From: Promicromonospora soli
Lineage (GTDB): Bacteria > Actinomycetota > Actinomycetes > Actinomycetales > Cellulomonadaceae
Direction of reading: 5' to 3'
Assembly: GCF_014653785.1 (NCBI RefSeq)
Contig: NZ_BNAS01000002.1
Span: forward strand, 244,756 to 308,755
Length of the DNA stretch: 64,000 bases
Part shown: positions 4,692-23,346 of the stretch, in pieces
Numbering within the stretch: position 1 is the stretch's first letter
Layout: the number at the start of each line of letters is the position of its first letter
The notes under the pieces: generated by a model
The model's input: the letters and a program-made list of their open reading frames with translations, nothing else
The model's database searches: none
Told to the model about the DNA's origin: nothing
Position numbers and translations under genes: made by a program

Positions 4692-6995
4692 TTAGACCGA
4701 GGCGATCGCGCGGTCCTGCTCCGCCTGCTGCTCCGCGTCCACGCGGGACGCCCGGACCCGGGACCAGATCACGGCGCCGAACGCCACGGCCGCCGCCACG
4801 AGGGCGATGCCGATGCGGAGCCCGTGGTTGGCGTCCGCGGGCACGCTGATCGCGACCACTGCCGGCGCGATCAGCAGCGCCACCAGGTTCATCACCTTGA
4901 TCAGCGGGTTGATCGCCGGGCCGGCGGTGTCCTTGAACGGGTCACCCACGGTGTCGCCGATGACCGTCGCGGCGTGTGCGTCGGAGCCCTTGCCGCCGTA
5001 CTTGCCGTCCTCGACGATCTTCTTCGCGTTGTCCCAGGCGCCGCCCGAGTTGGCCAGGAAGATCGCCATGAGCACGCCCGATCCGATGGCCCCGGCCAGG
5101 AACCCGGCCAGCGGCCCGACGCCGAGCCCGAAGCCCACCGCGATGGGCGCGAACGCCGCCAGCAGACCCGGAGTGATGAGCTCGCGCAGCGAGTCCCGGG
5201 TGCAGATGTCGACGACCTTGCCGTACTCGGGGCGCTCCTCGTACGTCATGATGCCCGGGTGCTCGCGGAACTGGCGGCGCACCTCGAACACGATGGCGCC
5301 GGCGGCGCGCGTCACGGCGTCGATCGCGAGCCCGGAGAACAGGAACACGGTGGCGCCACCGAGGATCACACCGACCAGGGTCACCGGCGAGATGATCTCG
5401 TAGCTGAGCATCGAGGTCACGAGCCCGGTGCCGACGTTCTCGACCTCGGCGAGCGCGTGCGTCACGGCGTCGGCGTACGAGCCGAACAGCGCGGTCGCGG
5501 CGAGCACGGCCGTGGCGATCGCGATGCCCTTGGTGATCGCCTTGGTGGTGTTGCCGACGGCGTCGAGGTCGGTCAGGATCTGCGCGCCCTCCTCGTCGAC
5601 GTCGCCGGACATCTCGGCGATGCCCTGCGCGTTGTCGCTGACCGGGCCGAACGTGTCCATGGCGACGATGACGCCGACCGTGGTGAGCAGGCCGCAGCCC
5701 GCGAGCGCCACGAGGAACAGTGCGAGCGGCACGGAGCCGCCGGCCAGCAGGAACACGCCGCAGATCGCGGCGGCGATGATGCCTGCCGTGTATACCGCGG
5801 ACTGGAAGCCCACGCCGATGCCGGAGAGCACGACTGTCGCTGCGCCGGTCCGGGAGGTCGCGGCCACGTGCAGGGTCGGCTTCTTGTCGGTGCCGGTGAA
5901 GTAGCCGGTCACCCAGAGGATGACGCCCGCGAGGACCACGCCGATGAGCACGGCGAGCGAGGACACGACGCGCGGGTCGGCGGTCACGCCGGAGAGGTCG
6001 GCGGTGCCGGGCGACTGGTCGAACGAGGAGGGCAGGTAGGCGAAGGCCGCGATCCCGGCCAGCACCGCGCCGACGACGGCGGAGATGTAGAAGCCACGGT
6101 TGATCGCGGCGAGGCCGCTCTCGGACCCGCGGACCCGGGTGATGAACACGCCCAGCAGGGCGACGAATGCGCCGATGGTGGTGACGATCAGCGGGAACAC
6201 GAGACCCTGCTCGCCCATCGCTGCCTTGCCCAGGATGAGGGCGGCCACGAGGGTCACGGCGTAGGACTCGAAGAGGTCGGCGGCCATGCCGGCGCAGTCG
6301 CCGACGTTGTCACCCACGTTGTCCGCGATGGTGGCCGCGTTGCGCGGGTCGTCCTCGGGGATGCCCTGCTCGACCTTGCCCACCAGGTCCGCGCCGACGT
6401 CGGCCGCCTTGGTGAAGATGCCGCCGCCCACGCGCATGAACATGGCGAGCAGCGCGGCGCCGAAGCCGAAGCCTTCGAGCACGGCGGGCGCGTCGACGTC
6501 GTACACGAGCACGACGAGCGCGGCGCCGAGCAGGCCGAGGCCCACCACGGACATACCGACGACGCCGCCGGTGCGGAAGGCGATGCGGGCGCCCTCGGCC
6601 CGGCCCCCGGGACGGGTCGCGGCGGAGGCGACGCGGACGTTGGCCCGCACCGCGAGCCACATGCCCAGGTAGCCGATCGCCGCGGAGAACCCGGCGCCGA
6701 AGACGAACGCGATGGAGCGTCCGACCCGCACGCCGCCGTCGCCCGGCAGCAGGAAGAGCAGCGCGAACACGACCGCGGCGAACAGCACGAGGGTGCGCAG
6801 CTGTCGCTTCAGGTAGGCGGACGCGCCCTCCTGGATGGCCTGGCCGATGTCCTGCATCTTGGCGGTTCCGTCAGGCGCGGCAAGCACCTGGCGACGCAGC
6901 ACGAAGGCACACCCGAGTGCGGCAACCGCGATGACGGCGATCACCGCCACCGTGGTGTAGCTGCCTGCGCCGAAAACAATGCCGTCTTCGAGCAT
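4692..6995 (-). CDS. hppA: K+-independent membrane H+-translocating pyrophosphatase
   Basis: 767 residues, the normal length for the family. ATG 6995 is chosen because GAGGAGG lies just upstream; frames extending further have no such site. The protein is a string of about 16 hydrophobic helices. The substrate-binding signature DVGADLVGKVEQGIPEDD (near residue 200) and the Asp-rich stretch DNVGDNVGDCAGMAADLFESY are intact. GNTTKA near residue 480 has Lys where K+-dependent enzymes have Ala, which in this family predicts a K+-insensitive proton pump. It hydrolyses pyrophosphate in the cytoplasm and exports protons. It appears monocistronic, closed by the hairpin at 4622-4675. Confidence 0.97.
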   Translation of the reverse strand: MLEDGIVFGAGSYTTVAVIAVIAVAALGCAFVLRRQVLAAPDGTAKMQDIGQAIQEGASAYLKRQLRTLVLFAAVVFALLFLLPGDGGVRVGRSIAFVFGAGFSAAIGYLGMWLAVRANVRVASAATRPGGRAEGARIAFRTGGVVGMSVVGLGLLGAALVVLVYDVDAPAVLEGFGFGAALLAMFMRVGGGIFTKAADVGADLVGKVEQGIPEDDPRNAATIADNVGDNVGDCAGMAADLFESYAVTLVAALILGKAAMGEQGLVFPLIVTTIGAFVALLGVFITRVRGSESGLAAINRGFYISAVVGAVLAGIAAFAYLPSSFDQSPGTADLSGVTADPRVVSSLAVLIGVVLAGVILWVTGYFTGTDKKPTLHVAATSRTGAATVVLSGIGVGFQSAVYTAGIIAAAICGVFLLAGGSVPLALFLVALAGCGLLTTVGVIVAMDTFGPVSDNAQGIAEMSGDVDEEGAQILTDLDAVGNTTKAITKGIAIATAVLAATALFGSYADAVTHALAEVENVGTGLVTSMLSYEIISPVTLVGVILGGATVFLFSGLAIDAVTRAAGAIVFEVRRQFREHPGIMTYEERPEYGKVVDICTRDSLRELITPGLLAAFAPIAVGFGLGVGPLAGFLAGAIGSGVLMAIFLANSGGAWDNAKKIVEDGKYGGKGSDAHAATVIGDTVGDPFKDTAGPAINPLIKVMNLVALLIAPAVVAISVPADANHGLRIGIALVAAAVAFGAVIWSRVRASRVDAEQQAEQDRAIASV

Positions 6996-7043
6996 TCGTC
7001 CTCCTCGACGAGCTCCGGGGCAGTTCCCCCAGAAAGTGTGTTG

Positions 7044-7055
7044 CCCTGTACAGGG
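7044..7055. promoter_or_regulatory. 12-base palindrome upstream of hppA
   Basis: CCCTGTACAGGG is a perfect palindrome about 50 bases upstream of the hppA start, and GTACA occurs again in CCGTACAAGG a few bases on. It may be an operator for hppA; no regulator is identified. Confidence 0.3.
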
Positions 7056-7150
7056 TTGACCCGTACAAGGCCTATGCGTCCCGCCGGCAACGTCGATGGC
7101 GGGAAGAAGCCAGAGTCTACCCACATGTGACGGCAGTCACTATGTCGAAA

Positions 7151-7178
7151 CCGCCGGGCACGACACCTCACCCGGCGG
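7151..7178 (-). terminator. Hairpin downstream of the HAD phosphatase gene
   Basis: Arms CCGCCGGG (7151-7158) and CCCGGCGG (7171-7178) pair perfectly around a 12-base loop. On the minus strand it follows the stop codon at 7184 and is followed by TTTC, so it can end the regulator-HAD transcript. Confidence 0.55.
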
Positions 7179-7183
7179 ATCTT

Positions 7184-7936
7184 TTACGGCGGCCCCGCAC
7201 TCGAAGTGAGCTCGTGGATCTCCTGGAGCAGCCGCACCGGGTCCGTGAGGTCCGGCAGCACCACGTCGGCGCCCGCCTCGGCGAGCACCTCCGCCGGCGT
7301 CGTGCCCGAGGCGACGGCGACCACCCGCGCGCCGCCCTCCAAGCCGCTCCGCACGTCCTCCAGGGAGTCCCCGACGATCACGGTGTTGCCCCGGTGGAAG
7401 GTGCAGGAGTACTGGTCGCCGGCGCGGCGCTGGGCGACGGCCACGAGAGCCGGCCGGTGCGCGTCGTCGGACGCGAAGCCGCCCACCGCGGCGTCGACGT
7501 ACCGGTCCATGCCGAAGACGCGCAGCTTGATCAGGGCGTTCGCCTCGAGGTTGCCCGTCAGGACCGTCGCGACCAGGTCGGGCTCGGCCGCGACCGCCTT
7601 GAGCGACTGCATGGCACCGGGGAGCACGGCGCCGAGGCGCCGCACGTCCTCGGTGTGCGCCGCGAAGCGCAGCGGCACTACTTCGAGCATGTGCGGCAGG
7701 AGGTCGTCGACCTCGCGCTCGGTCACCCCGTTGTCCTCCAGGAGGCCACGGATAGCCAGCGGCATGGTCACGCCGGTGCCCTTGGCCGGGAGGCGTTCGG
7801 CGGGCCGTCCCACGACCTCGGCGAACGCCTCCCGGTATGCCGTCCGGTCTACCTCCCCGACGTACACGAGCGTCCGATCGATGTCCCAGAGCACGAGGGC
7901 CTTGGCATCACCGCCGGGGGTGACCGGTGCTGTCAC
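7184..7936 (-). CDS. HAD family hydrolase (phosphatase, Gph/PGP-like)
   Basis: 250 residues. The GTG start at 7936 overlaps the TGA of the upstream regulator (GTGA), so translation is probably coupled. HAD motif I is DIDRTLVYVG, motif II the Thr of VLTGN, and motif IV GDSLEDV, with a cap domain between I and II. It should be a cytoplasmic magnesium-dependent phosphatase of the phosphoglycolate-phosphatase type; the substrate is unknown. Motif I has Arg after the second Asp (DxDR), as in several HAD phosphatases. Its pairing with the HTH/TPR regulator suggests the two act in one response. Confidence 0.9.
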   Translation of the reverse strand: MTAPVTPGGDAKALVLWDIDRTLVYVGEVDRTAYREAFAEVVGRPAERLPAKGTGVTMPLAIRGLLEDNGVTEREVDDLLPHMLEVVPLRFAAHTEDVRRLGAVLPGAMQSLKAVAAEPDLVATVLTGNLEANALIKLRVFGMDRYVDAAVGGFASDDAHRPALVAVAQRRAGDQYSCTFHRGNTVIVGDSLEDVRSGLEGGARVVAVASGTTPAEVLAEAGADVVLPDLTDPVRLLQEIHELTSSAGPP

Positions 7937-11346: not shown

Positions 11347-13044
11347 TCAGCCGCGGGTGGAGTAGGTCTTCCAGCGACCCGACATGTCCATGGTGACCCG
11401 CATCCCCAGGTAGCCGTCCGGCTCCGCCCGCTGGGCGTCGGCCTCCTCTGCCGTGAGCAGACCCGCAGCGACCACCTCGGCCCAGGCCTCATCCGAGTCG
11501 TGGAACGCCCCGGTCGCGACCCTGGGCCAGACGACAGACGCGTCGGGCATGCCCTCGCCGACGATGTGAGGGACGGTACCGGTCAGCAGTGCGGCAAGCG
11601 TCCGGTAGTGCTCCGTGCCGGGCTCGGGCAGCGCGAACGTCTGTTCCGGGGTCTCCGTGCCGTTCAGGATCTCGGTCTTCGAGTCGTTCGCCAGGGCGAT
11701 CAGCGCTTCGGAGTCGCAGTTCATCGCCGCGATCACGATGGACCCGGCAGTTGCCGCGGTGCTCCCGGTCACCGAGCTCCCCGGAACGTACTCCGGCTCG
11801 AAGCCGGTCGCCGAGCACTCGGGGCCGGCGCCCCCGTCTTCGACCGTCTCCGGCTCGAGGGAGACCCAGAGCCGCACCACGCCGTCGGGCACGCTCGGCA
11901 GCCGGATATCGATGACCCCCCCGCTTCTGTTCTCGGACAGGACTCCGATCGCCGTCCCCGACTCGCCCCCGTCGCAGGAGATCTGGTCGGTCCCGACCAC
12001 ATCGCCTGTCGACGCCACCAGCTCGATCGGGAGCAATGCCTCCGGGTCCCCGCCCTCGCACTGGCCGATGACCCTCATCGGGATGTCCGACGAGTAGGCC
12101 TGCTGGGTCATCTCCGCGCTGACCCAGTCCGTGGTGCGGTCCAGCTCGAACCGCGAGACCTGGCCCTTTGCCGGCTTCGGGAACTCGATGGTCGGCACGG
12201 CGCGCGCTTCGCCCGGGCTGTGCGCGCCGTCGACATCGAGGCGAACCGGCACCGGGTCGCTCACCGCCGTGGCGTGCAGACCCGCGGACGTCTCCGGGAA
12301 GGCGACGACCCGCACCTCGTAGTCACCATCCGGAAGCTGTGTCTCGTGCTGCAGGTCGCCCCCGTACGAGCCCGGCACGCACGTCGTCATCGAGCTGCCC
12401 CTGGCCGCGACGGTGTTGCCACCCGTACCGAGGAGAGGGTCCGACTGCGCGTCCCACCCCTCGAAGACGTTCGGCCCCAGATCCAGCACCACGCCGTCCT
12501 GGCTCCACACCAGGACGGGTGGGGCGTCGAGCGTGCCCTTCCCCTCCTGGAGCGTCGCTGCCATGCCCCAAGCTCGCGAGCGTTCGCCCCCGAGGTCCGC
12601 CGTCCGGGCGTAGATGTCGCCGGCCGGCGCCACCGACCAGCCCGATGCCGTCGACTTCAGGTCGGCCACCGGCATACCGCACGTCAGGTCGCTCCAGTCG
12701 AGCCAGGGCGGCTGGTAACCGTCCTTCACCTGGAAGTCCGGGGCCGACGACGACGGTGTGGACGCCCCGGGCAGCAGCTCGGACTGCTCCGCGGGCGCTA
12801 GTTGCCCTGCCCCGAGCACCAGCGCGCCCGCCAGGGCGAGTGCTCCGCCGCCGAGCCCACCCAGCTTCGCCGTCCGACGCCGTCGCACCCGCCGGCTCAT
12901 CGCCGTCATCGCAGCGGCCGGCCCCGTGGGCGACGCGGGGTCCACCCCGCCGGCCATCGCGCTGAAGGTCTGCTTCAGGAGCCCGCTCCCCGCCGGATCC
13001 ACCCAGCCGTGGTCCTGGCCCAGGCCGTCGTCGTGCTGGTTCAT
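11347..13044 (-). CDS. Membrane-anchored extracytoplasmic partner of sigma A (module A)
   Basis: 565 residues, starting at ATG 13044 inside the TGA of the sigma gene (ATGA overlap). The N-terminal ~60 residues are cytoplasmic and end in RRVRRRRTAKLGG; one transmembrane helix follows (GGALALAGALVLGAG). Outside is a domain with DGYQPPWLDWSDLTCGM, shared by all five modules, then two further beta-rich parts, and a C-terminal module VVWPRVATGAF..SDEAWAEVVAAGL shared with modules C and E. No HxxxCxxC zinc anti-sigma motif is visible. Its position and coupling suggest it anchors, senses for or inhibits the sigma factor (inference). It could also be simply a target of the regulon. Confidence 0.75.
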   Translation of the reverse strand: MNQHDDGLGQDHGWVDPAGSGLLKQTFSAMAGGVDPASPTGPAAAMTAMSRRVRRRRTAKLGGLGGGALALAGALVLGAGQLAPAEQSELLPGASTPSSSAPDFQVKDGYQPPWLDWSDLTCGMPVADLKSTASGWSVAPAGDIYARTADLGGERSRAWGMAATLQEGKGTLDAPPVLVWSQDGVVLDLGPNVFEGWDAQSDPLLGTGGNTVAARGSSMTTCVPGSYGGDLQHETQLPDGDYEVRVVAFPETSAGLHATAVSDPVPVRLDVDGAHSPGEARAVPTIEFPKPAKGQVSRFELDRTTDWVSAEMTQQAYSSDIPMRVIGQCEGGDPEALLPIELVASTGDVVGTDQISCDGGESGTAIGVLSENRSGGVIDIRLPSVPDGVVRLWVSLEPETVEDGGAGPECSATGFEPEYVPGSSVTGSTAATAGSIVIAAMNCDSEALIALANDSKTEILNGTETPEQTFALPEPGTEHYRTLAALLTGTVPHIVGEGMPDASVVWPRVATGAFHDSDEAWAEVVAAGLLTAEEADAQRAEPDGYLGMRVTMDMSGRWKTYSTRG

Positions 13045-13634
13045 CGCAATGCTCCTTCTGCCGTGGCCACTCCAGCCGGTTCCAGCACGTCGCGCAGAAT
13101 GCGCAGCGCGTCATGCAGGTGGCGCTTGACGGTCCCCGGGGCGTTCCCGAGCGTTTCCGCCACCTGGTCGATCGTCATGTCCTCGAAGTAGCGCAGCACC
13201 ACGCATGCGCGCTGCCGGGGCGAGAGCCTGCTGAGCGCCTGCACTACGTCCGCCCGGGCCGTGATACCCGAGTCGGGAAAGCGCACCCGGTCGTGCGTGG
13301 CGACCCTGGGCTCGATGTCGGCCCACTTCTTCTTGCGGCGCCAGCCGTCCAGGTACAGGTTCAGGACCGTGCGACGCACATACGCCTCCGCGTACTCCAC
13401 GGGTGCGTGCCCGCCGTCGCTCCGTGCGCTCTCGTCGAGCGACAGCGTGTACGTGCCCGCCGCCGCCTGACCGCGGCGCCCGCCCCGTCGCACCAGGCGA
13501 GAGCAGTACTTGACCAGCGCCTCCTGCACCAGGTCCTCGGCCTGCCGGACGTCGCCGCACAACGTGTACGCGTACCCGACGAGCACGCTGCCGCGCTGTG
13601 CGGCGAGCGTCTCCAGGTCTTCGTGCCAGCCCAT
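13041..13634 (-). CDS. SigE-family RNA polymerase sigma factor (module A)
   Basis: 197 residues, ATG at 13634 with GGAAGGAG upstream. Region 2 (LVGYAYTLCGDVRQAEDLVQEALVKYCSRL, then YVRRTVLNLYLDGWRRKKKW) and region 4 (LSPRQRACVVLRYFEDMTIDQVAETLG, then GTVKRHLHDALRILRDVL) are complete, matching the short actinobacterial SigE-family (SigE70) ECF-like sigma factors. It should direct polymerase to its own regulon. The predicted promoter at 13666-13691 has the box pair found before modules C, D, E, which suggests autoregulation. It is translationally coupled to the membrane protein downstream. Confidence 0.93.
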   Translation of the reverse strand: MGWHEDLETLAAQRGSVLVGYAYTLCGDVRQAEDLVQEALVKYCSRLVRRGGRRGQAAAGTYTLSLDESARSDGGHAPVEYAEAYVRRTVLNLYLDGWRRKKKWADIEPRVATHDRVRFPDSGITARADVVQALSRLSPRQRACVVLRYFEDMTIDQVAETLGNAPGTVKRHLHDALRILRDVLEPAGVATAEGALR

Positions 13635-13746: not shown

Positions 13747-15258
13747 ATGGCCAGCACCGTGGACGACGTCGGACAAACGACCGGCTCGCCGTACCCTGCA
13801 CGGTTCCGTGCCGCCGAGGCACGCGGGACCCGGATCGCCCGGCCGCTGCGCCTGCTCGGCCGGGTGCGCGGCGTGGACGAGGCGCTCCTGGACCGGATCG
13901 GCCGTGCCTTCTTCGAGCAGGACGACGCCGCGGCGGCGCTCGCCGCTGCCATGCGGCTGCCCGCCGGGACGCCGGGACGTGTGACGCACGCGCAGCTCCG
14001 TGCGGCGCTGGCTGGTGCCGGCACCTTGGACGGTGCCGCTGAGATCGGTCCGTCGCCTGGTGGCGGCGCTGAGATCGGTCCGTTGCCTCGAGATCGGTCA
14101 ATCGATGGACCGATCTCAAGGCAAGCGACCGATCTCGGCGCAGGAATCCAGCAAACGACCGAGCCCAGCACGGGAACCCCGCAAACGACCGAGCCCAGCG
14201 CGAGAACCCAGCCAGCATCAGATGTCGGGTCGCACTCTCCGAAGGCACTCCGGGATTTTCTTGCCGAGGTCACCCCCGTGCCCAGCTGGGTGGACTGGGA
14301 CCTCGTCGAGGCCGGCGCCGCCGTGCAGCGGCGGCTCGGGCAGAACGCGGGCGACGTGCTGCTGCAGCTGTCGCTCGTGGGCGGGTACCGGTTCAGCGGG
14401 CCCACGGACCTGCTCGCGGCGACCGGCGCGCTGACGGGCGGCACGCTGCGCCGGCTCGCGGAGACGCAGGAGTGGACGGTCGGGCTGTCCGAGCCCGGGG
14501 CGCTCCGGCCGTACGGCCCCGCCTGGCGGGCCACCGTGCAGGTCCGGGCGATGCACGCACTGGTCAGCGCATCCTTCGAGGACCGTTCCGGGCCGGAAAG
14601 GTGGGACACCGGCCGCTGGGGCCTGCCGATCAACCAGGCCGACCAGGCGGCGACGCTCGGGCTGTTCGACGGCACCCTGATCCTCGGGTGCCGGGCGCTC
14701 GGGGTGCGCATCCCGCCGTCGGACAGCCAGGCCCTGATGCACCTGTGGAAGTGGGTGGGGCACCTGCTGGGGGTGCACCAGGACTTCCTGGTCGACGACG
14801 AGTGGGCGCGGCACCGGATCAACTATCACGTGCTGCTCGCGCAGGCCGGGATCTCGGACGCGGGGCCGCGCCTCGCCCGGGCCGTGGTCGCCGCGCAGGC
14901 CGACCGGATCTACCCCGGCCCGTCCTGGTGGCAGCCGGGGCGGGCGCGGTTCGAGCGGGAGCGGCTGCTGTCGATGCTGACGGCGTTCCTCGGGGTGCGC
15001 AGCATGCGTGAGCTCGGCCTGCCGCTGCGTCCGCCGTGGGCGCACGCGTACCTGCTGCCGCTCAACGTGTGGCGGTACCACGTGTTCGGCCGCCTCCCCG
15101 GCGGACGGGACCGCCTCGAACGCCGGGGCCGACGCCGCAGCGCCGCCATCATCACGAGCTACCGCGCCTGGCCCGAACCGTCCGCCAGCGTCACGCGCAC
15201 CGGCGCGGAGACAGGGAGCCAGACGACATCCTCACCGAATACCGGCATCACGGCGTAG
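13747..15258 (+). CDS. DUF2236 / MpaB-like oxygenase family protein
   Basis: 503 residues. Residues ~170-470 match DUF2236 (MpaB / latex-clearing-protein related): WVDWDLVEAGAAVQRRLGQNAGDVLLQLSLVGGY, LLAATGAL, VQVRAMHALV, and PINQADQAATLGLFDGTLILGCRALG. Lcp-type members bind haem b and cleave isoprenoid carbon chains; whether this one does is unknown. Residues ~98-160 between the N-terminal helices and the core are made of repeated DNA: a palindromic element (14071-14136) and two 30-base repeats (14151-14210). The last ~30 residues are encoded antisense to sensor gene B, since the two genes overlap tail to tail by 100 bases. That tail is low complexity and looks like read-through beyond an ancestral stop. 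Confidence 0.85.
   Translation: MASTVDDVGQTTGSPYPARFRAAEARGTRIARPLRLLGRVRGVDEALLDRIGRAFFEQDDAAAALAAAMRLPAGTPGRVTHAQLRAALAGAGTLDGAAEIGPSPGGGAEIGPLPRDRSIDGPISRQATDLGAGIQQTTEPSTGTPQTTEPSARTQPASDVGSHSPKALRDFLAEVTPVPSWVDWDLVEAGAAVQRRLGQNAGDVLLQLSLVGGYRFSGPTDLLAATGALTGGTLRRLAETQEWTVGLSEPGALRPYGPAWRATVQVRAMHALVSASFEDRSGPERWDTGRWGLPINQADQAATLGLFDGTLILGCRALGVRIPPSDSQALMHLWKWVGHLLGVHQDFLVDDEWARHRINYHVLLAQAGISDAGPRLARAVVAAQADRIYPGPSWWQPGRARFERERLLSMLTAFLGVRSMRELGLPLRPPWAHAYLLPLNVWRYHVFGRLPGGRDRLERRGRRRSAAIITSYRAWPEPSASVTRTGAETGSQTTSSPNTGITA
14071..14136. repeat. Palindromic element family 3, in-frame copy in the DUF2236 gene
   Basis: A 66-base nested palindrome. The inner arms GAGATCGGTC (14090-14099) and GACCGATCTC (14108-14117) are perfect; outer arms 14071-14088 and 14119-14136 pair with two mismatches. 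An extra outer arm is at 14041-14058. It encodes PRDRSIDGPIS in frame. The second copy, 46725-46790 in the helicase gene, is also 66 bases and is read in the same frame. Confidence 0.85.
14151..14210 (+). repeat. 30-base tandem repeat, two copies
   Basis: Units 14151-14180 and 14181-14210 differ at only a few positions and each begin GCAAACGACCGAGCCCAGC. They encode a Thr/Pro-rich linker (TTEPSTGTPQ then TTEPSARTQP) in the DUF2236 protein, right after the palindromic element. Confidence 0.85.
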
Positions 15259-16190
15259 ACGTCGAACGTGCCGCCTTCGCGCAGGTGTGTGTACACCGCC
15301 GGCCAGTCCTCCTCCGAACCCTCGATCTCGGCAGCACACGCGTTGGTAGCCTCCGTCAGTGCCTCCAAGTCCCACGGCCCCTCCGGAGCGCCCACCTCGG
15401 GTGCGTAGTAGCTCAGTTCGGAGGCGTTGATGGCCGGGATGTCTACCACCACACCGTCCTGCACCCAGACCAGCATCGGGTCCAGATAGCCGCTGAGCGC
15501 GGCGGCGTCACCAGTGAGCCGCGTGCCCGCTCGCCAGCCCGGCCAGTCCTGTCGCATGCTCAGACCGCTCGTCATCTCGAGCCCGAAGCCCCCGTCCGGT
15601 GCGCTCAGCAGGTCCTCGACAGCCATACCGCAGTACGCGTCGAGCCCCTCGACCTGGAGGCTGTTGAGCCAGCCCTGCGGCACGTACCCCTTGACGTAGG
15701 TCGCGGTGATCGGGAACGTCTCGTCCGTGGCCACCGAGGAGGCACTCGGGTCGGCACTCGGCTCGACGGCCGCGGCGCCCGACGGCACCGGGTCCGGGGT
15801 CTCCGACGGCGACGCGGACGGCGTCGGGCTCGCGGACGCCGTCGGGCTCGGGGAAACGCGCGTCGTCGGGATCTCCGACGGCACCGGCCCTGTCTCGGTG
15901 CTTTGCACGGTGGGACGGCCGGGCAGCGGCTCGGACCGGCTCCAGGTGGTGGCCTGCGCCGTGCTGAAGGCGAGCGCGCCGACGACGATCGCGGTGGTCA
16001 GCCCGACTGCGCCGGCCTTGGCGAGGCGCCAGGTCCGCACCCTCCGGCGCAGGAGCCCGAGGTTCACCTCCGGTGCGCTGGGCACGTCGCGGGGTGTGGC
16101 GCCGTCGACCAGCGCGCCGATGGTCTGCTTCAGGACGTCGCGGCCGGGGCCAAGATCGGCGTCGAACCCGAGGTCGTCGTGCCCGCTCAT
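15159..16190 (-). CDS. Membrane-anchored extracytoplasmic partner of sigma B (module B)
   Basis: 343 residues from ATG 16190, overlapping the sigma stop by ATGA. About 55 cytoplasmic residues are followed by one transmembrane helix (AVGLTTAIVVGALAFSTAQ). A long Ser/Pro/Thr linker (SPSPTASASPTPSASPS) then leads to one short domain with YVPQGWLNSLQVEGLDAYCGM, the WxxxxxxCGM-type motif shared by the array. It lacks the C-terminal WPRV module of A, C and E, so it is the minimal version. Its 3' end overlaps the opposite-strand DUF2236 gene by 100 bases. A role as sensor or anti-sigma partner is inferred from the coupling. Confidence 0.75.
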   Translation of the reverse strand: MSGHDDLGFDADLGPGRDVLKQTIGALVDGATPRDVPSAPEVNLGLLRRRVRTWRLAKAGAVGLTTAIVVGALAFSTAQATTWSRSEPLPGRPTVQSTETGPVPSEIPTTRVSPSPTASASPTPSASPSETPDPVPSGAAAVEPSADPSASSVATDETFPITATYVKGYVPQGWLNSLQVEGLDAYCGMAVEDLLSAPDGGFGLEMTSGLSMRQDWPGWRAGTRLTGDAAALSGYLDPMLVWVQDGVVVDIPAINASELSYYAPEVGAPEGPWDLEALTEATNACAAEIEGSEEDWPAVYTHLREGGTFDVYAVMPVFGEDVVWLPVSAPVRVTLADGSGQAR

Positions 16191-16738
16191 AGGAGCTCTC
16201 CTTCCGGCACGAGCACGCCGCGCAGGGCGCGGATCCCGTCGGCCAGGTGTCGCTTGATGGTGCCCTGCGAGATCCCGAGCGTGGTGGCGATCTGGGGCAC
16301 GGTCAGGTCGTCGTAGAAGCGGAGCACCACGCACGCCCGCTGGCGCGGGCTGAGGCCGCGCAGCGCGGCCGTCACGTCGGCACGGGCGGTGATGTCCGAC
16401 GCAGGCGCTCGCACCCGGTCCTCCACCGCCACCTTGGGCTGGGCCTTGCGCCACAGCGCGAACCGCCGGGTCTCGTCGAGGTAGAGGTTGAGCATCGTCC
16501 GGCGCACGTACGCCTCGATGCCCGCGTGGCTTCCGCCGTCGTGCAGGGGGAACTCGGAGTAGCCCTCGGTGCCGGCGGCCTCGGGGCGGCGGAACCGCCG
16601 GAAGACGCGGACCAGGGCGTCCTGCACCAGGTCTTCCGCCCGGCGCACATCCCCCGTCAGCGCGTACCCGTACCCCACGAGGGCACGCCCTCGGCGCGTC
16701 ACGAGCTCCGTGAGCTCATCGTCCCAGCGGGTGCTCAC
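16187..16738 (-). CDS. SigE-family RNA polymerase sigma factor (module B)
   Basis: 183 residues. The second of two adjacent GTG codons (16738) is favoured because AGGGG lies six bases before it; GTG 16741 is possible. Region 2 (LVGYGYALTGDVRRAEDLVQDALVRVFRRF; YVRRTMLNLYLDETRRF) and region 4 (LSPRQRACVVLRFYDDLTVPQIATTLG; GTIKRHLADGIRALRGVL) are intact. Unlike the other modules, no CAACnTT / 14 bases / CGTYA promoter was found upstream, so it may be controlled differently. It is coupled to the downstream membrane protein. Confidence 0.92.
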   Translation of the reverse strand: MSTRWDDELTELVTRRGRALVGYGYALTGDVRRAEDLVQDALVRVFRRFRRPEAAGTEGYSEFPLHDGGSHAGIEAYVRRTMLNLYLDETRRFALWRKAQPKVAVEDRVRAPASDITARADVTAALRGLSPRQRACVVLRFYDDLTVPQIATTLGISQGTIKRHLADGIRALRGVLVPEGELL

Positions 16739-16808
16739 CACGCACCCCTGTTCTGACCCTGTCGGATCGCTTGCCTGGTCACATGCCCGTCCCCTCGCCC
16801 CGGCGGGC

Positions 16809-16878: not shown

Positions 16879-18621
16879 TCAGTCGCTGGCGGAGTAATAC
16901 CGCCAGGTGCCGTCCTCGGCGATGCCGATCCGCATCCCCTGGTAGCCGAACACCTCGTCCGCCCGCCAGGACGCGGCCTGCTCGGCCGTGGCGAGACCCG
17001 CCGTGACTACCTCATCCCAGGCCTCGTCCGAGTCGGCGAACTCCTCGGTGGCGACCCGCGGCCACACGACCGTCTCGTTCCCGGCGTCCCCGCCGCTGGT
17101 CTGGCCACGGGTACCGGCCAGCAGCCGGACCAGCGTCTCGTACGGCAACGCGTCGTTCTCGGGCAGGCCGAAGACCTGCTCCGGGGTCTCGACGCTGAAC
17201 ATGAGCTCCGTACTGTCGTCCGTCGCGAGCTGGATCAGCCGTTCGGAGTCGCAGGCGACCGCGGCATCCACGATGGCCGCAGCCTTCGCCCCGGAGTTCG
17301 GGCTCGGCGAGTTCGCCGGGTCGTACTCCATGCCCAGATTGCTCGCCGAGCACTCGGCGGCGGCGTTCCCGGCGTCCGGCGTCGGACCGAAGGCGGCCCA
17401 GAACCGAGCGACGCCGTCGGGCACGGACGTCAGCCTGATGGCCACGACCTCCTTGCCGCCACCGACCACGGGCAGCGACTCGTACCAGGAACCGTCGCAC
17501 AGGACCTCGCCTGATCCGAGCGCCTCGTTGGTGGATGGCTGCACAACCTCGTAGGTCACCATGTCTGCCGGGTCCGTGCTCTCGCACTCCGCGCTGACCA
17601 AGGGCGTACCCGTCGTCACATAGCCGCGCTGAGTCAGCTCCGCCGTGACCCAGTCGGTGCTGCGGTCGAGCACCAACCGCGAGAGCTCGCCCTCGGCAGG
17701 CTCGGGCGGCTCGATCGTCGCCGGGCCGCCGCGCGTCCCGGTCGCGGTGTGCGCGCCGTCGGCGTCGATGCGGACCGAGACCGGCTCGCTCACCGCCGTC
17801 GCCCACTGGCCCGCGGCGATCTCCGGATAGGCGACCACCCGGACCTCGTAGTCACCATCGGGCAGCGGCGTCTCGAACGTGTCGTTCGTCTCGGCCTCGG
17901 AGGGCTCGCACGACGTGAACGCGCCCCCTTCCGCCTCGACGGCTCCCGCGCCACCGCCGATCAGCGGCTCCGACTGCTTGCCCGGCGCCTCGAGGACGTT
18001 CGTCCCGAGGTCCACCACCACGCCGTCCTGGCTCCACACCAGGACCGGGGCGGCATCGAGCGTTCCCTCGCCCCCCTCGACCAGCGCTGACATCCCCCAC
18101 GTCGTCGAGGGATCGCCGTCGAGATCCGCGGTCCGGCCGTAGATGTCGCCCGTCGACGTCGCCGACCAGCCCGGCGCCGTCGACTCCAGGTCCGCCACGG
18201 GCATGCCGCACTGCAGGTCGCTCCAGGTGAGCCAGTCGGGCTGGTATCCGTCCTGGATGACGCTCGTGGCTGGCGGTCCCGCCCAGCTCGCCTCCGGCGC
18301 CAGGGTCGAGGTGTCGCTCTGGGACTTGTCCGGGGTCATGAACGCGCTCTGGGACGATCCTGGGAGCACCGGACCGTTGCCGTCCAGCAGCGGCCCCTTC
18401 GTCGCGCCGAAGGCGATCCCGCCCACCAGCACGAGGCTCACGCCGGCGAGGCCGCCGATCTTGACGGCACGACGGCGTCGCACGCGGTCACGTACCACTC
18501 CGAATGAGATATGCAGATCGTTCACCTCCCCACCGGGCATCTCGTCGGCGGCTCCGCGGAGCACGCCGCTCAGGAAGTCGTTGTCGCTGTTCCAGCTCTC
18601 GTCTCGGTCGATGCTGTTCAT
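16879..18621 (-). CDS. Membrane-anchored extracytoplasmic partner of sigma C (module C)
   Basis: 580 residues, ATG 18621 within the sigma stop (ATGA). It is the closest relative of the module A protein in this window: cytoplasmic N-terminus ending RDRVRRRRAVKIGG, one transmembrane helix (LAGVSLVLVGGIAFGA), then DGYQPDWLTWSDLQCGMPVADLESTAPGW, and the C-terminal WPRVATEEFADSDEAWDEVVTAGL module. The extra domains between are beta-rich and unannotated. No zinc anti-sigma motif is seen. The similarity over the whole length to A indicates duplication of the whole two-gene module. Confidence 0.75.
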   Translation of the reverse strand: MNSIDRDESWNSDNDFLSGVLRGAADEMPGGEVNDLHISFGVVRDRVRRRRAVKIGGLAGVSLVLVGGIAFGATKGPLLDGNGPVLPGSSQSAFMTPDKSQSDTSTLAPEASWAGPPATSVIQDGYQPDWLTWSDLQCGMPVADLESTAPGWSATSTGDIYGRTADLDGDPSTTWGMSALVEGGEGTLDAAPVLVWSQDGVVVDLGTNVLEAPGKQSEPLIGGGAGAVEAEGGAFTSCEPSEAETNDTFETPLPDGDYEVRVVAYPEIAAGQWATAVSEPVSVRIDADGAHTATGTRGGPATIEPPEPAEGELSRLVLDRSTDWVTAELTQRGYVTTGTPLVSAECESTDPADMVTYEVVQPSTNEALGSGEVLCDGSWYESLPVVGGGKEVVAIRLTSVPDGVARFWAAFGPTPDAGNAAAECSASNLGMEYDPANSPSPNSGAKAAAIVDAAVACDSERLIQLATDDSTELMFSVETPEQVFGLPENDALPYETLVRLLAGTRGQTSGGDAGNETVVWPRVATEEFADSDEAWDEVVTAGLATAEQAASWRADEVFGYQGMRIGIAEDGTWRYYSASD

Positions 18622-19199
18622 CGGGCGGCCCTCCCTTCGGCGGCCGGACGGAAGTCGTCAGGGCGCAGGAACTCCTGCATGTTCTTGGTGGCGTCGGACA
18701 GGTAGCGCTTGACCGTGCCCTGGGCGGTGCCCAGGGACTCGGCAATCTGGGGCACCGTCATGTCCTCGAAGTAGCGCAGCACCACGCAGGCTCGTTCGCG
18801 GGCTCCGAGCTGGGCGAGCGCCGCCATCACGTCGACCCGCGCCGAAGCGGCCTGGTCGGCCCCGCGGCTGCTGGCGTCGTCGGCCAGGAGGTGCTTGACC
18901 CCGGTCCAGCGCTGCCGCTTGCGGTAGCCGTCCAGGTAGACGGTCAGGACGGCACGGCGCACGTAGCCCTCCGCGTTCGTGAACGGGGCGTCCAGGTCGT
19001 GCGCCCGGCTGCCCTCGGGCACACCCACTGGTCTGCCCCGACCGGGAACGCCGCGCAACCGCGAGTAGACCTTGACCAGCGCGTCCTGGACCAGGTCCTC
19101 GGCAAGCGCGCGGTCTCCGGAGAGCATGTAGGCATAGCGGACGAGGGCGCTTCCGCGCGTCCTCATGAGCTCATCGAGCTCGTTCTCCCATACCGCCAT
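18618..19199 (-). CDS. SigE-family RNA polymerase sigma factor (module C)
   Basis: 193 residues. ATG 19199 is chosen because GGGGAGG lies five bases upstream; the in-frame GTG at 19205 would abut that site. Region 2 (LVRYAYMLSGDRALAEDLVQDALVKVYSRLRG; YVRRAVLTVYLDGYRKRQRW) and region 4 (LGARERACVVLRYFEDMTVPQIAESLG; GTVKRYLSDATKNMQEFL) are complete. The predicted promoter is at 19248-19273. A 12-base inverted repeat (ACCTCCCCGGTG and complement) links the ribosome site with the -35/spacer region, which could be a protein site. Confidence 0.93.
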   Translation of the reverse strand: MAVWENELDELMRTRGSALVRYAYMLSGDRALAEDLVQDALVKVYSRLRGVPGRGRPVGVPEGSRAHDLDAPFTNAEGYVRRAVLTVYLDGYRKRQRWTGVKHLLADDASSRGADQAASARVDVMAALAQLGARERACVVLRYFEDMTVPQIAESLGTAQGTVKRYLSDATKNMQEFLRPDDFRPAAEGRAAR

Positions 19200-19247
19200 G
19201 ACCACCTCCCCGGTGCGTGTGTCCTGTCATCGTCTCCACACGCACAA

Positions 19248-19274: not shown

Positions 19275-21047
19275 TCAGTTTTCGGCGATGTGTTGCGATC
19301 CTGCAGCCACGGACATGAACTGCCGCTCGCCGCCCGAACCGGGGTCGAGCTCCGTAAGGGCGTACAGCTTGTAGTCCCCATCCGGCATCCCGGCGTCCGG
19401 GTCCGTGAGGCACGTCCGGTCGGGCTCGGTGATCGGCAAGACGGCGGACCACTCGCCGTTGGCGTCCACCCGGAAGCGCTCCACCGGGCCGGACCACACG
19501 TCGCTGCCGACCCCGACCACGCGCCCGTCACTTAGCCAGACCATGGTGAACGGCGTACGGGTCGTGTCGACGGCCTCCCCCTCGGTCTCGGTGAGCCTGA
19601 TCGTTACTTCGTCGTCGGTGGAATCGATATTCAGCTCCAGGCCCAACGGCTCCCAGGGCGCCCAGCCGCCAGGGATATCGGACGCATAGACGCCGCAAGC
19701 CAGTCTCGTGCCCTCGAGCCACGGCGGCTGGTAGCCGTCTCTGATGTCGACGGTCAGCGGCGGCAGGGGCGGCACCTCGACCGCGGGGACCTCCATGGTG
19801 ACCGGCTGGCTGACAGCCAGGCCGCTTGCCCTCGGGCCCTCATAGGCGGCCCACGGCAGCACCACGTATACGTCGTAGGTTCCGGCCGGACGTTGGTCCC
19901 GGTAGTTCTCGTGGATGTCCGAGATCGTCCACGCCCCGCACGCGGTGGTGGCACTCGCCTCGGCGACGTCGTCCGCGGACTCGCCGGCATCGGGCATGAC
20001 GTACCCGCCCTCGTTCCAGCCCCCGCTGATATCGACCACCAGACCGTCTTGCGCGAAGACCAGCTGGGGGCCCTGGCCGTCGAGGGACGGGCCCTCGGCG
20101 TCGGTCCGGGTGATCCGGATGGGCGCCGCCAGATGGTCGTTCGGGTGCCCCTCGTTACCTTCCACGCCTTCCACGAGCTCGACGTCGCCGGTGAGCTCCA
20201 CGCGTACGGTGTCTGACGACGACACCAGGGCCGTCACCTCCATGCCGCAGTAGAACTGCTCGCCCTTGCTCGTCCAGCCTTGGGGTGTCCACCCCGCGCC
20301 GACCGCGCCGTTCGACACCTCCGGGCTCGGAGTGGCCGGCGGCACCGGGTCCGACAGGAGCCGTGCGGGCCCCCACAGCGCGGCCATCGCCAGCAGGCCC
20401 GCCAGCACCAGCGAGGCGCCGCCGAGGGCGCCGACCTTCGCCGCCCGACGTCGGCGTACCGAACCCGACACGGCGCCGAGTCGCTCCTCCAGCGACGTCT
20501 CCATCTCGGGTGCCACGATCTCGGCGAGCGAGCCCCGCAGCAGCTCCATCGCGTTCGACAGGTGCCGCTTGATCGTCCCGGGCCTCGTCCCCAGCGTCTG
20601 CGCGATCTGCGGCACCGTCATGTCCTCGAAGAACCGCAGCACTACTGCCTCTCGCTGGCGCGGAGACAGCTTGGCGAGCGCCACGCCGACGTCGACCCGG
20701 GCTGTCGCGACGCGCTCCGCCCCGGGTGCATAGAGGTCGTCGGCCAGAAGGTGCTTGAAGCCGGTCCAGCTGCTCTGCCGCCTGTACCCGTCAAGGTAGA
20801 TCGTCAGGATTGCCCGGCGGACGTACGCCTCCACGTTCGTCAGCCGGGGCTGATCCAGATCGACGGTCTGCCGCCCGACGTCGGCCATCTCGGGCGGACG
20901 CCGCAGCCGGGAGTAGACCTTGACCAGCGCGTCCTGCACCAGATCCTCGGCCTGCGGCTTGTCCCGCGTCAGCGAGTACGCGTACCCCACCAGCGCACCG
21001 CTGCGCCGCATCACGAGCTCCGTGAGCTCCGTCTCCCAGTGCGCCAT
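19275..21047 (-). CDS. Fused SigE-family sigma factor - transmembrane - extracytoplasmic protein (module D)
   Basis: 590 residues in one frame from ATG 21047, which has AGGAGG upstream. Residues 1-175 are a complete SigE-family sigma factor: region 2 (LVGYAYSLTRDKPQAEDLVQ; YVRRAILTIYLDGYRR) and region 4 (LSPRQREAVVLRFFEDMTVPQIAQTLG; GTIKRHLSNAMELLRGSL). A linker SLEERLGAVSGSVRRRRAAK, like the N-terminus of the separate partner proteins, leads to a transmembrane helix at ~205-227. The outside part has two copies of the array domain: QFYCGMEV and YQPPWLEGTRLACGVY. There is no stop, start or frameshift between the parts. The sigma factor would be tethered to the membrane unless cleaved. Promoter at 21078-21103. 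Confidence 0.88.
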   Translation of the reverse strand: MAHWETELTELVMRRSGALVGYAYSLTRDKPQAEDLVQDALVKVYSRLRRPPEMADVGRQTVDLDQPRLTNVEAYVRRAILTIYLDGYRRQSSWTGFKHLLADDLYAPGAERVATARVDVGVALAKLSPRQREAVVLRFFEDMTVPQIAQTLGTRPGTIKRHLSNAMELLRGSLAEIVAPEMETSLEERLGAVSGSVRRRRAAKVGALGGASLVLAGLLAMAALWGPARLLSDPVPPATPSPEVSNGAVGAGWTPQGWTSKGEQFYCGMEVTALVSSSDTVRVELTGDVELVEGVEGNEGHPNDHLAAPIRITRTDAEGPSLDGQGPQLVFAQDGLVVDISGGWNEGGYVMPDAGESADDVAEASATTACGAWTISDIHENYRDQRPAGTYDVYVVLPWAAYEGPRASGLAVSQPVTMEVPAVEVPPLPPLTVDIRDGYQPPWLEGTRLACGVYASDIPGGWAPWEPLGLELNIDSTDDEVTIRLTETEGEAVDTTRTPFTMVWLSDGRVVGVGSDVWSGPVERFRVDANGEWSAVLPITEPDRTCLTDPDAGMPDGDYKLYALTELDPGSGGERQFMSVAAGSQHIAEN

Positions 21048-21077
21048 GTCGACGCCTCCTCTCCCTCTCATGCTCCC

Positions 21078-21103
21078 TGACGGGTAGGGAGGGGAAAACG
21101 ATG
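21078..21103 (-). promoter_or_regulatory. ECF-type promoter of module D
   Basis: On the minus strand CATCGTT (21097-21103) and CGTCA (21078-21082) are separated by 14 bases, about 30 bases before the start codon of the fused gene. Confidence 0.6.
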
Positions 21104-21176
21104 ATGCCAGCGGCGAGAAATTCGCCGGAACCACGATGACGTGCCATCGGAAGTCTCCGTTTGGACTACGGCTTCG

Positions 21177-21326
21177 CTAACTACATCTGCTGCAGTTTGG
21201 TCGCTGGTGATGCTGCAGTTTCGTCGCTACCTCTGCTGCAGTCTCGTCGCAACGGATACCGCAGTTTCGTCGCTGGCCGGTGCGCCGCATCACGAGCTCC
21301 GCGAGCTCCGACTCCCACTGCGCCAT
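21177..21326 (-). pseudogene. Truncated SigE-family sigma gene remnant between modules D and E
   Basis: From ATG 21326 the first 16-17 codons (MAQWESELAELVMRRTG) match the start of the module D and E proteins (MAHWETELTELVMRRSG, MAQWEAELAELVLRRSG). The match then stops abruptly at a 23-base tandem repeat, and the frame ends at 21177 after 49 codons. The ribosome site and an array-type promoter (21355-21380) are preserved. It looks like the 5' end of a lost module, cut by repeat expansion or recombination. Confidence 0.8.
21187..21276. repeat. 23-base tandem repeat, about four copies
   Basis: Units begin near 21188, 21211, 21234 and 21258 and share TGCTGCAGTTTCGTCGCT with a few changes. The array starts exactly where the sigma remnant loses similarity to its paralogues. 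Confidence 0.85.
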
Positions 21327-21354
21327 GTCGACGCTCCTCTCGTCCGGCCGCCTG

Positions 21355-21380
21355 TAACGGACGGAGCGTACGAAACGTTG
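21355..21380 (-). promoter_or_regulatory. ECF-type promoter of the sigma remnant
   Basis: On the minus strand CAACGTT (21374-21380) and CGTTA (21355-21359) are 14 bases apart. It is nearly identical to the module E promoter and may still be active, producing a short transcript through the repeat array. Confidence 0.6.
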
Positions 21381-21409
21381 AGCCGTACCGATGGCGGAGA
21401 CGCCGAAGG

Positions 21410-23233
21410 CTACCTGCACCCGTGTTCGGCGTCGGGACGGGAGCACCAACTGTCGTCGCCCACGTAGAAGTCGCTCCAGATCCGACGGACGGGATCCCCA
21501 CCCAACGAGATGAAGCCGAGCTGCCAACCCGTGTACCGGCCGGCCGCACGATCCTCCGCCGCCTGCTCCTCGGTGACCACGCCGGCGTCGATCGCCTCCT
21601 GCCACGCCGCGTCGCTGTCGACCGACCTGTCCACTCGTGGCCAGGTCCCGTCGCTCCCGAGCTCATCGCTCACCGGCAGAGTTTCGGTGAGGAGCCGCGC
21701 GACTGTCGCATAGGGCGTCCGGCCGTCGGTCTCCGGCAGCGCGAAGACCTCGTTGACCTCAGGCATGGCCCACGTGGCATGCGGTTCGGTCTGCAGGCCC
21801 TCGCCGAGCTCGGCCACACGCCGCGCGTCACAGGTAGTTACCGCCTCGAGGAGGTCCAGGGCCAGGTCGCGTGCATCGTCCGGCAGGTCCTGCGCCTTCA
21901 GGCTCCGCCCCGCGTAAGCGGCCCCGCTGCATTCGTCCGACGGCGGCGGGAAGGTCGGTGCCGGGGCGACACCGCTGTCCAGCTCCACGGTGACCGGATC
22001 GCTGACGAGGAGGTCAGCCTTCCCGTCGGCCGCGGACGCCGAGCCGTCGGACATCACCACGCGCAGCTCGTAGCTCGCCCCCGGCCGCTCGTTGTCATAT
22101 TCGTCGCCCATGGGGTTGTCTGCCACGAGGGTTTCTTCGCGGCACGTCGTCGAGTTGCCCGCCGTCGCCGGCCCACTCCAGGCGCCGTCCTCGGACAGCG
22201 CCCACGAGATCTCCGCGTCGGCCTCACGCCACCCGGTGCCGAGGTCGACCACCCGGCCGTCGTGGGCCCATACGATCAACGGCGACGTCATGAAGTACCC
22301 GCGCTCGTCGTCGGCCATGTCCTCGGGAACGGTCCCGGTGACCGTCACCGGAACCTCCCAGAAGGTGGGGATGCCATGCGCTCGCGGAGCAAGGCCACCG
22401 GTGATCTCCACCTCGAACCTGCCGGCGTCCAGCGCCTCGAGTTCCTCGACCGGCATCCCGCAGTACACGCCGTCGTCGGTGGACCAGCTGGCCGGCACGT
22501 ATCCCGGCGTGTACTCGACCTTGTCGTCCGCGGGCAGCGGCTCCGACCGGATCCACGGCTTCACCGCGAAAGCACCCCACGCCAGCACCACGGCCAGCAC
22601 CATCGACACACCAGCGACCGCGCCCACCTTCGCCGTCCGACGGCGACGCACCGCACCCGCCACCGTGTCCAGCCGCTCGTCGAGGTCCGTGTCCATGGCG
22701 GGCACCGGGGCGTCCGCGAGGGCCTGGCGCAGCACGGCCGTCGCGTCGAACAGGTGCCGCTTGATCGTGCCCTGGCTCGTGCCCAGCGCCTCCGCGATCT
22801 GCGGCACGGTCAGGTCGTCGAAGAACCGCATCATCACGGCCTCACGCTGCCGGGGCGAGAGCTGCTTGAGCGCCGTGCCGACGTCGACCCGCGCCGTCGC
22901 CACCCGGTCCGCCCCCGGCGCGGAGACATCGTCCGCCAGGAGGTGCTTCAGGCCGGACCAGTGGTTCCGCCGCCGGTAACCGTCCAGGTAGATCGTCAGG
23001 ATCGCGCGCCGCACGTACCCCTCGGCGTTGGTCGCCTCCGGCCGGTCCAGGTCGACCTGCGTCTGCCCCGCGACCGACGGCGGACGCCGCAGCCGGGAGT
23101 AGACCTTCACCAGCGCGTCCTGCACCAGATCCTCGGCCTGCGGCTTGTCCCGCGTCAACGAGTACGCGTACCCCACCAGCGCACCGCTGCGCCGCAACAC
23201 GAGCTCCGCGAGCTCCGCCTCCCACTGCGCCAT
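21410..23233 (-). CDS. Fused SigE-family sigma factor - transmembrane - extracytoplasmic protein (module E)
   Basis: 607 residues from ATG 23233 with GAGGAG upstream. Residues 1-172 are a full sigma factor closely resembling that of module D (LVGYAYSLTRDKPQAEDLVQDALVKVYSRLRRPP; LSPRQREAVMMRFFDDLTVPQIAEALG). The linker DLDERLDTVAGAVRRRRTAK precedes a transmembrane helix at ~201-222 (VAGVSMVLAVVLAWGAFAV). Outside are PASWSTDDGVYCGM, beta-rich domains and the C-terminal TWPRVDRSVDSDAAWQEAIDAGV module shared with A and C. So it has the fused form of D but the domain content of A and C. Promoter at 23263-23288; no separate partner gene follows. Confidence 0.88.
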   Translation of the reverse strand: MAQWEAELAELVLRRSGALVGYAYSLTRDKPQAEDLVQDALVKVYSRLRRPPSVAGQTQVDLDRPEATNAEGYVRRAILTIYLDGYRRRNHWSGLKHLLADDVSAPGADRVATARVDVGTALKQLSPRQREAVMMRFFDDLTVPQIAEALGTSQGTIKRHLFDATAVLRQALADAPVPAMDTDLDERLDTVAGAVRRRRTAKVGAVAGVSMVLAVVLAWGAFAVKPWIRSEPLPADDKVEYTPGYVPASWSTDDGVYCGMPVEELEALDAGRFEVEITGGLAPRAHGIPTFWEVPVTVTGTVPEDMADDERGYFMTSPLIVWAHDGRVVDLGTGWREADAEISWALSEDGAWSGPATAGNSTTCREETLVADNPMGDEYDNERPGASYELRVVMSDGSASAADGKADLLVSDPVTVELDSGVAPAPTFPPPSDECSGAAYAGRSLKAQDLPDDARDLALDLLEAVTTCDARRVAELGEGLQTEPHATWAMPEVNEVFALPETDGRTPYATVARLLTETLPVSDELGSDGTWPRVDRSVDSDAAWQEAIDAGVVTEEQAAEDRAAGRYTGWQLGFISLGGDPVRRIWSDFYVGDDSWCSRPDAEHGCR

Positions 23234-23262
23234 GACCGACGCTCCTCTCGTCCCGCCGCCTG

Positions 23263-23288
23263 TAACGCACGGAGGGGGCAGAACGTTG
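23263..23288 (-). promoter_or_regulatory. ECF-type promoter of module E
   Basis: On the minus strand CAACGTT (23282-23288) and CGTTA (23263-23267) are separated by 14 bases, about 30 bases before the ATG. It is the best match to the remnant promoter. Confidence 0.65.
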
Positions 23289-23346
23289 AGTCGGGACCGC
23301 CGGGCAGAAACCGATGAGTCTCACCGACGCGGACAGTCCGCACCAC

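Follow-up and report, generated by a model that had tools for sequence, protein, structure and literature searches.

How can a sigma factor act when it is built into the same chain as a membrane helix and an outside domain? This question is raised by a 64,000-nucleotide stretch of the Promicromonospora soli genome (contig NZ_BNAS01000002.1, positions 244,756 to 308,755 of the forward strand; hereafter the window), whose open reading frames (ORFs) include a minus-strand succession of five modules, E, D, C, B, and A. Modules A, B, and C each consist of a sigma gene and, behind it, a partner gene whose start overlaps the sigma stop and whose product has one helix and a large outside portion, whereas in modules D and E the sigma and the membrane and outside parts lie within one frame each. 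A sequence-only reading had described D and E as natural fusions of a sigma factor, a transmembrane (TM) segment, and a sensor, and both frames were indeed found open at the coordinates it gave (Table 1). D probably begins at the ATG at 21047, since AGAGGAGG lies upstream. We consider it fairly probable that D and E are membrane-anchored extracytoplasmic function (ECF) sigma factors, each synthesized as a single chain, and that the sigma domain is released by proteolysis, its own promoter then being turned on.

The fusion is a property of the genus. Within our set of 13 Promicromonospora genomes, which includes that of the window (G000), a search with D returned 17 stop-free matches over query residues 2–580 or more, in 12 of the 13 genomes; one is D itself and the remaining 16 have 65–78% identity. 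The 13th genome (G002) carries a fusion with an E-type outside part. The regions fetched from the 13 genomes held 26 fused frames and 39 different non-fused sigma frames, a few of the latter being fragments. All fused genes but one (L060, on another contig of G010) lie in the cluster (25/26), and all but two that end early (L054:3503-4789 and L057:3181-4596) are complete. The fusions claimed for D and E thus recur throughout the genus, and the assembly error that had been named as able to undo them, a lost stop or start between the parts, fails as an explanation: with stop-free fused genes in the assemblies of 13/13 genomes, an error of assembly or annotation has a negligible probability. Among 12 D orthologues, the ratio of nonsynonymous to synonymous polymorphism (pN/pS) was 0.34 for the sigma domain, 0.46 for the linker (residues 176–197), 0.27 for the TM helix, and 0.60 and 0.64 for the outside part. 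In the alignment of the 24 complete genes, gap columns numbered 0/31 in positions 171–201, 11/173 in the sigma domain, 1/25 in the helix, and 76/232 and 71/209 in the outside part. The whole D span therefore behaves as one protein, and the length of its linker is kept.

Two separate proteins could nevertheless arise from one frame by internal initiation near the joint, which we regard as quite improbable. In 14/26 fused genes, a start codon in frame near the joint is accompanied by a Shine-Dalgarno-like run of at least 4, seven of these starts lying at D residue 179 and six at residue 193 (e.g., the GTG at V193 of D), but 12 of the 26 genes have none at all and no alignment column is used by more than 7. 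A control stretch inside the sigma domain has such starts in 18/26 genes and the gene starts have them in 21/26, so that internal starts, the other finding that had been expected to overturn the fusions, gain no support over the control.

Both Sigma70_r2 and Sigma70_r4_2 were detected above Pfam cut-offs in D and E, the region 2 match spanning only the first ~40 of 71 model positions, and in the structure that AlphaFold predicts for D, each of the two domains is represented by helices; the complete sigma factor (regions 2 and 4) claimed earlier is thus borne out. D and E have regions 2 and 4 only, as in ECF (group 4) sigma factors. Their best NCBIfam match was the SigE family TIGR02983, with scores (D, 106.7 bits; E, 102.6 bits) under the curated cut-off of 141.55, as were those of the split sigmas of modules A (120.5), B (128.1), and C (123.7). 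Matches of the D model in the PDB included SigL (E 2.7e-7) and SigH (E 2.8e-6) of Mycobacterium tuberculosis, in polymerase complexes; the root mean square deviation (rmsd) over both domains was 15–19, and the domains therefore match singly and not as one body.

In both proteins, the ECF sigma is followed by a short linker, RRRR, one predicted membrane helix, and an outside part. The distance from sigma to RRRR is ~22 residues, hydropathy gives a single hydrophobic stretch after RRRR, and the motif RRRR..K before the helix is invariant (24/24 rows). The positive-inside rule is the basis for reading topology from this motif, and since RRRR..K precedes the helix, membrane anchoring with the sigma domain inside and the sensor outside is predicted. 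AlphaFold modeling of D (57 rows; pLDDT, the predicted local confidence, averaging 75.5; pTM, the predicted template modeling score, 0.55) was confident for the sigma domain except loops and gave two beta domains outside; confidence is low for the linker and the stretch before the helix, and the model is therefore firm on nothing about their packing. The outside part of D matches beta-sandwich proteins such as RbmA (5.3e-7, rmsd 19), which suggests an Ig-like fold only. That of E, modeled separately (37 rows, pLDDT 87.4), has a beta domain and a C-terminal domain common to the partners of modules A and C, and no PDB match under E 0.001 was found for it (best 0.016). Two outside cysteines, C267 and C370 in D numbering, are invariant and could form a disulphide. 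The full Pfam lists (E ≤ 1) contained no zf-HC2, FecR, or carbohydrate-binding domain in D or E, the last of these being sought with Pfam models, a set outside which smart00776, the model named for SCO4117, falls. An anti-sigma domain was likewise absent from the full Pfam lists and from the NCBIfam matches listed, which ran to 25 rows.

Which genes might these sigma factors serve? D-type genes are preceded by the promoter-like element CATCGTT-N14-CGTC(AGG) and E-type genes by TCAACGTT-N14-CGTTAC, while the elements of modules A, B, and C are related to these without being identical. Across the 13 genomes, the core D pattern was matched 68 times, vs once for the reversed control. By our tally, 19 of these matches lie in the clusters (there are 19 genes with a D-type promoter, of which 18 are covered, and the remaining match is an additional site in G006), and 13 precede a gene for a single-helix protein of 58–77 residues, one per genome. 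This small TM gene was also found by protein search, independently of the element, in 13/13 genomes, and each copy has the element. Both boxes are kept and the spacer varies. In 12 copies an in-frame GTG starts 34 bases after the element begins, and because it is so close the mRNA may be leaderless. A second conserved block further upstream, CGTTCCC(G/T)AA..GTTA, may bind another regulator. In another genus, g14, with remote homologues (four genomes, 36–43% identity), the D element was absent in 4/4 and no D-type fusion appeared among the matches listed; the element was also absent in G090 (E 0.006). Judged from sequence, the D circuit thus looks like D itself together with a single, unlinked small membrane protein. 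Matches to the E pattern number seven in the 13 genomes, six before fused genes and one before a broken copy. These candidate regulons also bear on a very improbable alternative, in which the fused sigma no longer activates genes and instead sequesters polymerase or DNA sites as a decoy at the membrane: the promoter elements are kept, and so is the sigma domain, as its pN/pS indicates.

The elements also follow the sigma half of the fused genes. When each of the 26 was typed by comparison with D and E of the window (the promoter patterns having been loosened after looking), the RRRR-TM part and the outside part were of one type in 26/26, and the promoter type was that of the sigma in 24/26. 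The sigma and outside types differed in 6/26, as if swapped, with the border at the joint; this count is approximate because some sigma calls are close (L051, 77/76%; L052:12744, 78/75%). L051, L054:3503, L057:5069, and L062:3988 fell within the D-like sigma clade of the tree described below (support 99). New here are the sigma/sensor mismatch with promoter following sigma and the distribution of the two promoter patterns described above.

The sequence-only view that a tethered sigma needs release, or must act at membrane-proximal DNA, seems reasonable, and known systems suggest how an anchored sigma could be set free. IutY of Pseudomonas putida (ECF243) is a sigma-TM-periplasmic hybrid from which processing by Prc and RseP yields a sigma fragment of ~23 kDa (PMC5411451). 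It resembles D and E in having a cytosolic ECF sigma, one TM segment, and an outside regulatory part in one chain (PMC5411451; PMC8999054), and its fragment has the size expected from D and E; on the outside, however, IutY carries an anti-sigma region that acts together with an outer membrane receptor, and its host is Gram-negative. D and E differ from it in lacking a FecR match, in their predicted beta domains outside, and in their actinobacterial host. The outside part of IutY is FecR-like. The groups ECF48, ECF52, and ECF53 comprise actinobacterial membrane-anchored ECF proteins expected to be released by proteolysis (PMC8999054), SCO4117 being the studied case (PMC5826349). D and E share with them the host phylum and the C-terminal TM extension (by hydropathy), but those proteins have a zinc finger and ECF52 also a carbohydrate-binding domain, neither of which Pfam detects in D or E. 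Anchored ECF sigma factors as such are thus already known, from a few other bacteria, and by the features tested D and E appear to belong to none of these types. A 2022 review presents IutY as the only anchored ECF with characterized activation by proteolysis of its extension (PMC8999054), and membrane-associated sigma factors in Escherichia coli are the topic of PMC12037070. In the open-licence literature, no paper mentioning both Promicromonospora and sigma factors concerns such proteins, to judge by titles and the beginnings of abstracts, and the phrase "membrane-tethered sigma factor" was not found.

By analogy with IutY and ECF48/52/53, D and E would most likely work by proteolytic release. 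The sigma domain would be held inside by the short linker of fixed length and one helix, with the sensor outside; a signal would lead to cutting of the outside part, and an intramembrane protease would then free a fragment of ~210 residues (~23 kDa by length). This fragment would join RNA polymerase and transcribe its own gene and, for D, also that of the one small membrane protein. Several points weigh against this scenario. A gene for an M50 (site-2) protease is present at C4:180427-181578 of the window's own genome, but such proteases occur in 14/14 control genomes and its presence therefore says little. The lack of a zinc finger or FecR domain leaves the silencing of the sigma without explanation, and D residues 178–188 and 195–213 are below 50 pLDDT. 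By our tally, 36 of the 68 D pattern matches lie elsewhere than in the clusters or before the small TM gene (seven of these are one identical site common to 7 genomes); the E pattern misses the E-like promoter of G007 (TCAACCTT); and the D-like element could be read by another sigma. As the promoter adjoins the sigma, their joint inheritance can be plain linkage.

The sigma might instead be active while still anchored, the signal altering its exposure and the polymerase being recruited at the membrane to membrane-protein genes, which would be brought there during translation and insertion of their products. The fixed linker length is what a mechanical link would need, and membrane proteins are the predicted products of D and of the small TM gene, the two apparent targets of D; but the second target is on another contig (C6 vs C2) and IutY, the best analogue, is cut, so that we hold activity in the anchored state to be unlikely. 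It is equally unlikely that the linker helix or the sensor folds back as an on-board anti-sigma segment and that a conformational change alone activates the sigma. The invariant linker residues P180, R189, and G195 and a short helix in the model (186–195) fit such an arrangement, but residues 178–188 and 195–213 are poorly predicted, and the similarity of the linker to the N-terminal segment of the split partners is not above that of shuffles for the C partners (27/150 reach the score) and only weakly so for all partners (1/100, that one an outlier). A further possibility, itself doubtful, is that the anchor is the only inhibitor, with no anti-sigma domain and with tethering keeping the sigma off, that the whole conserved circuit consists of the own gene and one unlinked small membrane protein, and that fused paralogues still exchange sensors at the sigma/sensor joint, which would then be an active boundary between modules.

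Did the fused genes derive from split pairs? In a tree of 111 sigma domains, built by a quick method with SH-aLRT support only, all 26 Promicromonospora fusions fell into one clade (SH-aLRT 100) among split sigma/partner pairs, and this clade grouped with module C and with split sigma genes from other genera (support 83). Since they form one clade, the simplest reading is one fusion before the 13 genomes diverged. The fused label (29 rows) required 3 changes on the best tree, and starred branches forced 2; the other fused rows were L119 (G038:C66, from another genus, on a long branch of unsure placement) and L078 with L081, both from the window's own genome (support 99). The split state likely came first, as it is the state of most rows, the tree alone being blind to gain vs loss and its outgroup mixed (2/6 fused). 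In a family search of 101 genomes (8 of the genus), the non-genus matches listed stopped by query residue 196 or crossed a stop codon, except G038:C66.

Split pairs, whether modules A–C or those of other genera, share with D and E a homologous sigma, RRRR with a TM helix, and outside domains, but consist of two genes, and the partner has a cytosolic segment of 40–60 residues, a possible source of the fused linker, to which similarity exceeds that of shuffles weakly at best. The sequence-only reading had matched the join point, given there as RRRR(A/T)AK, to the N-terminus of the partners; a match to RRRR(A/T)xK exists, but it lies at partner residues ~46–60, just before the helix. In 76 of 80 different pairs found (35/36 in the genus), the partner starts one base before the sigma stop codon, mostly with an ATGA or GTGA overlap, a count that is weaker than it appears because 13/29 fused genes carry a start codon there too. 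Some family matches cross one TGA in the sigma frame. We do not take such read-through matches as precursors of the fusion: nearly every pair has its partner start in a different frame, so that loss of a single stop is unsupported.

Although anchored ECF sigmas have been described, studies of them are scarce, and the interest of this locus lies not in a tethered sigma per se but in its side-by-side split and fused genes, through which the change between the two states can be studied, together with its natural sensor mismatches, small candidate regulons, and likely direction of change. It offers a clean setting for asking if a tether is enough by itself to keep a sigma silent, and how a sigma and its membrane partner are changed when the two become one protein.

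Table 1. Features of the five-module locus in window coordinates, with the unlinked small TM gene.
Feature	Position	Strand	Basis or remark
Module E, single ORF: sigma, linker, TM, outside part (607 aa)	21410..23233	minus	
E promoter-like element, TCAACGTT-N14-CGTTAC	23262..23289	minus	
E sigma domain, residues 1-173	22715..23233	minus	
E TM helix, residues 199-228	22550..22639	minus	hydropathy
E outside part: beta domain and C-terminal domain	21413..22549	minus	related to module A and C partners
Broken E-type gene start, between E and D	21277..21385	minus	promoter element, ribosome site, first ~17 codons
Module D, single ORF: sigma, linker, TM, two outside beta domains (590 aa)	19275..21047	minus	
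D promoter-like element, CATCGTT-N14-CGTC	21079..21103	minus	
D sigma domain, regions 2 and 4, residues 1-175	20523..21047	minus	Pfam, AlphaFold, PDB matches
D linker including RRRR, residues 176-201	20445..20522	minus	same length across the 24 complete Promicromonospora fusions
D TM helix, residues 202-226	20370..20444	minus	hydropathy; AlphaFold helix 212-225
D outside part: two beta domains	19278..20369	minus	conserved cysteines
Module C sigma, separate gene	18618..19205	minus	
Module C partner (TM and outside part)	16879..18621	minus	ATGA overlap with sigma stop
Module B sigma, separate gene	16187..16741	minus	
Module B partner	15159..16190	minus	
Module A sigma, separate gene	13041..13634	minus	
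Module A partner	11347..13044	minus	ATGA overlap
Small single-TM gene, own genome	L137:2060-2254 = C6:278059-278253		D-type element upstream

Some further observations concern the cluster and its relatives. A short tandem array of period 23 (~4 copies) occupies window positions 21181–21274, directly behind the broken E-type copy. The cluster of G008 (L057) contains extra and decayed E-type copies, including a frame (6985–7813) that joins a sigma N-terminus to a late part of the sensor; the cluster therefore gains and loses copies. The site L142 (own genome, C4:122727) reads CATCGTTCGCGATCGCCTGGGCGTC, is identical in 7/13 genus genomes, and is perhaps coding.

Beyond the cluster, the own genome has 39 sigma-70 region 2 matches, and five of these proteins have a TM helix in an extension behind the sigma domain: D, E, L078, L081, and L084 (hydrophobic calls in L067, L080, L083, L085, and L094 lay inside the sigma or C-terminal part and were excluded by eye). 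Pfam detects a zinc finger in L084 and in none of the other four. L078 (C6:148388) and L081 (C1:1088973) are sigma-TM-outside fusions of a separate lineage; no fused relative beyond the own genome was among the matches listed in a search of 198 genomes of the order with L078, and long-frame matches like L078 and L081 are listed in other genomes of the genus. The outside part of L119 weakly matches PknH_C (E 3.9e-5, under the cut-off). In L084 (C10:83328), whose frame is very long, an ECF sigma is accompanied by zf-HC2 and by hydrophobic stretches, two in number, a layout like that of ECF48/52/53.

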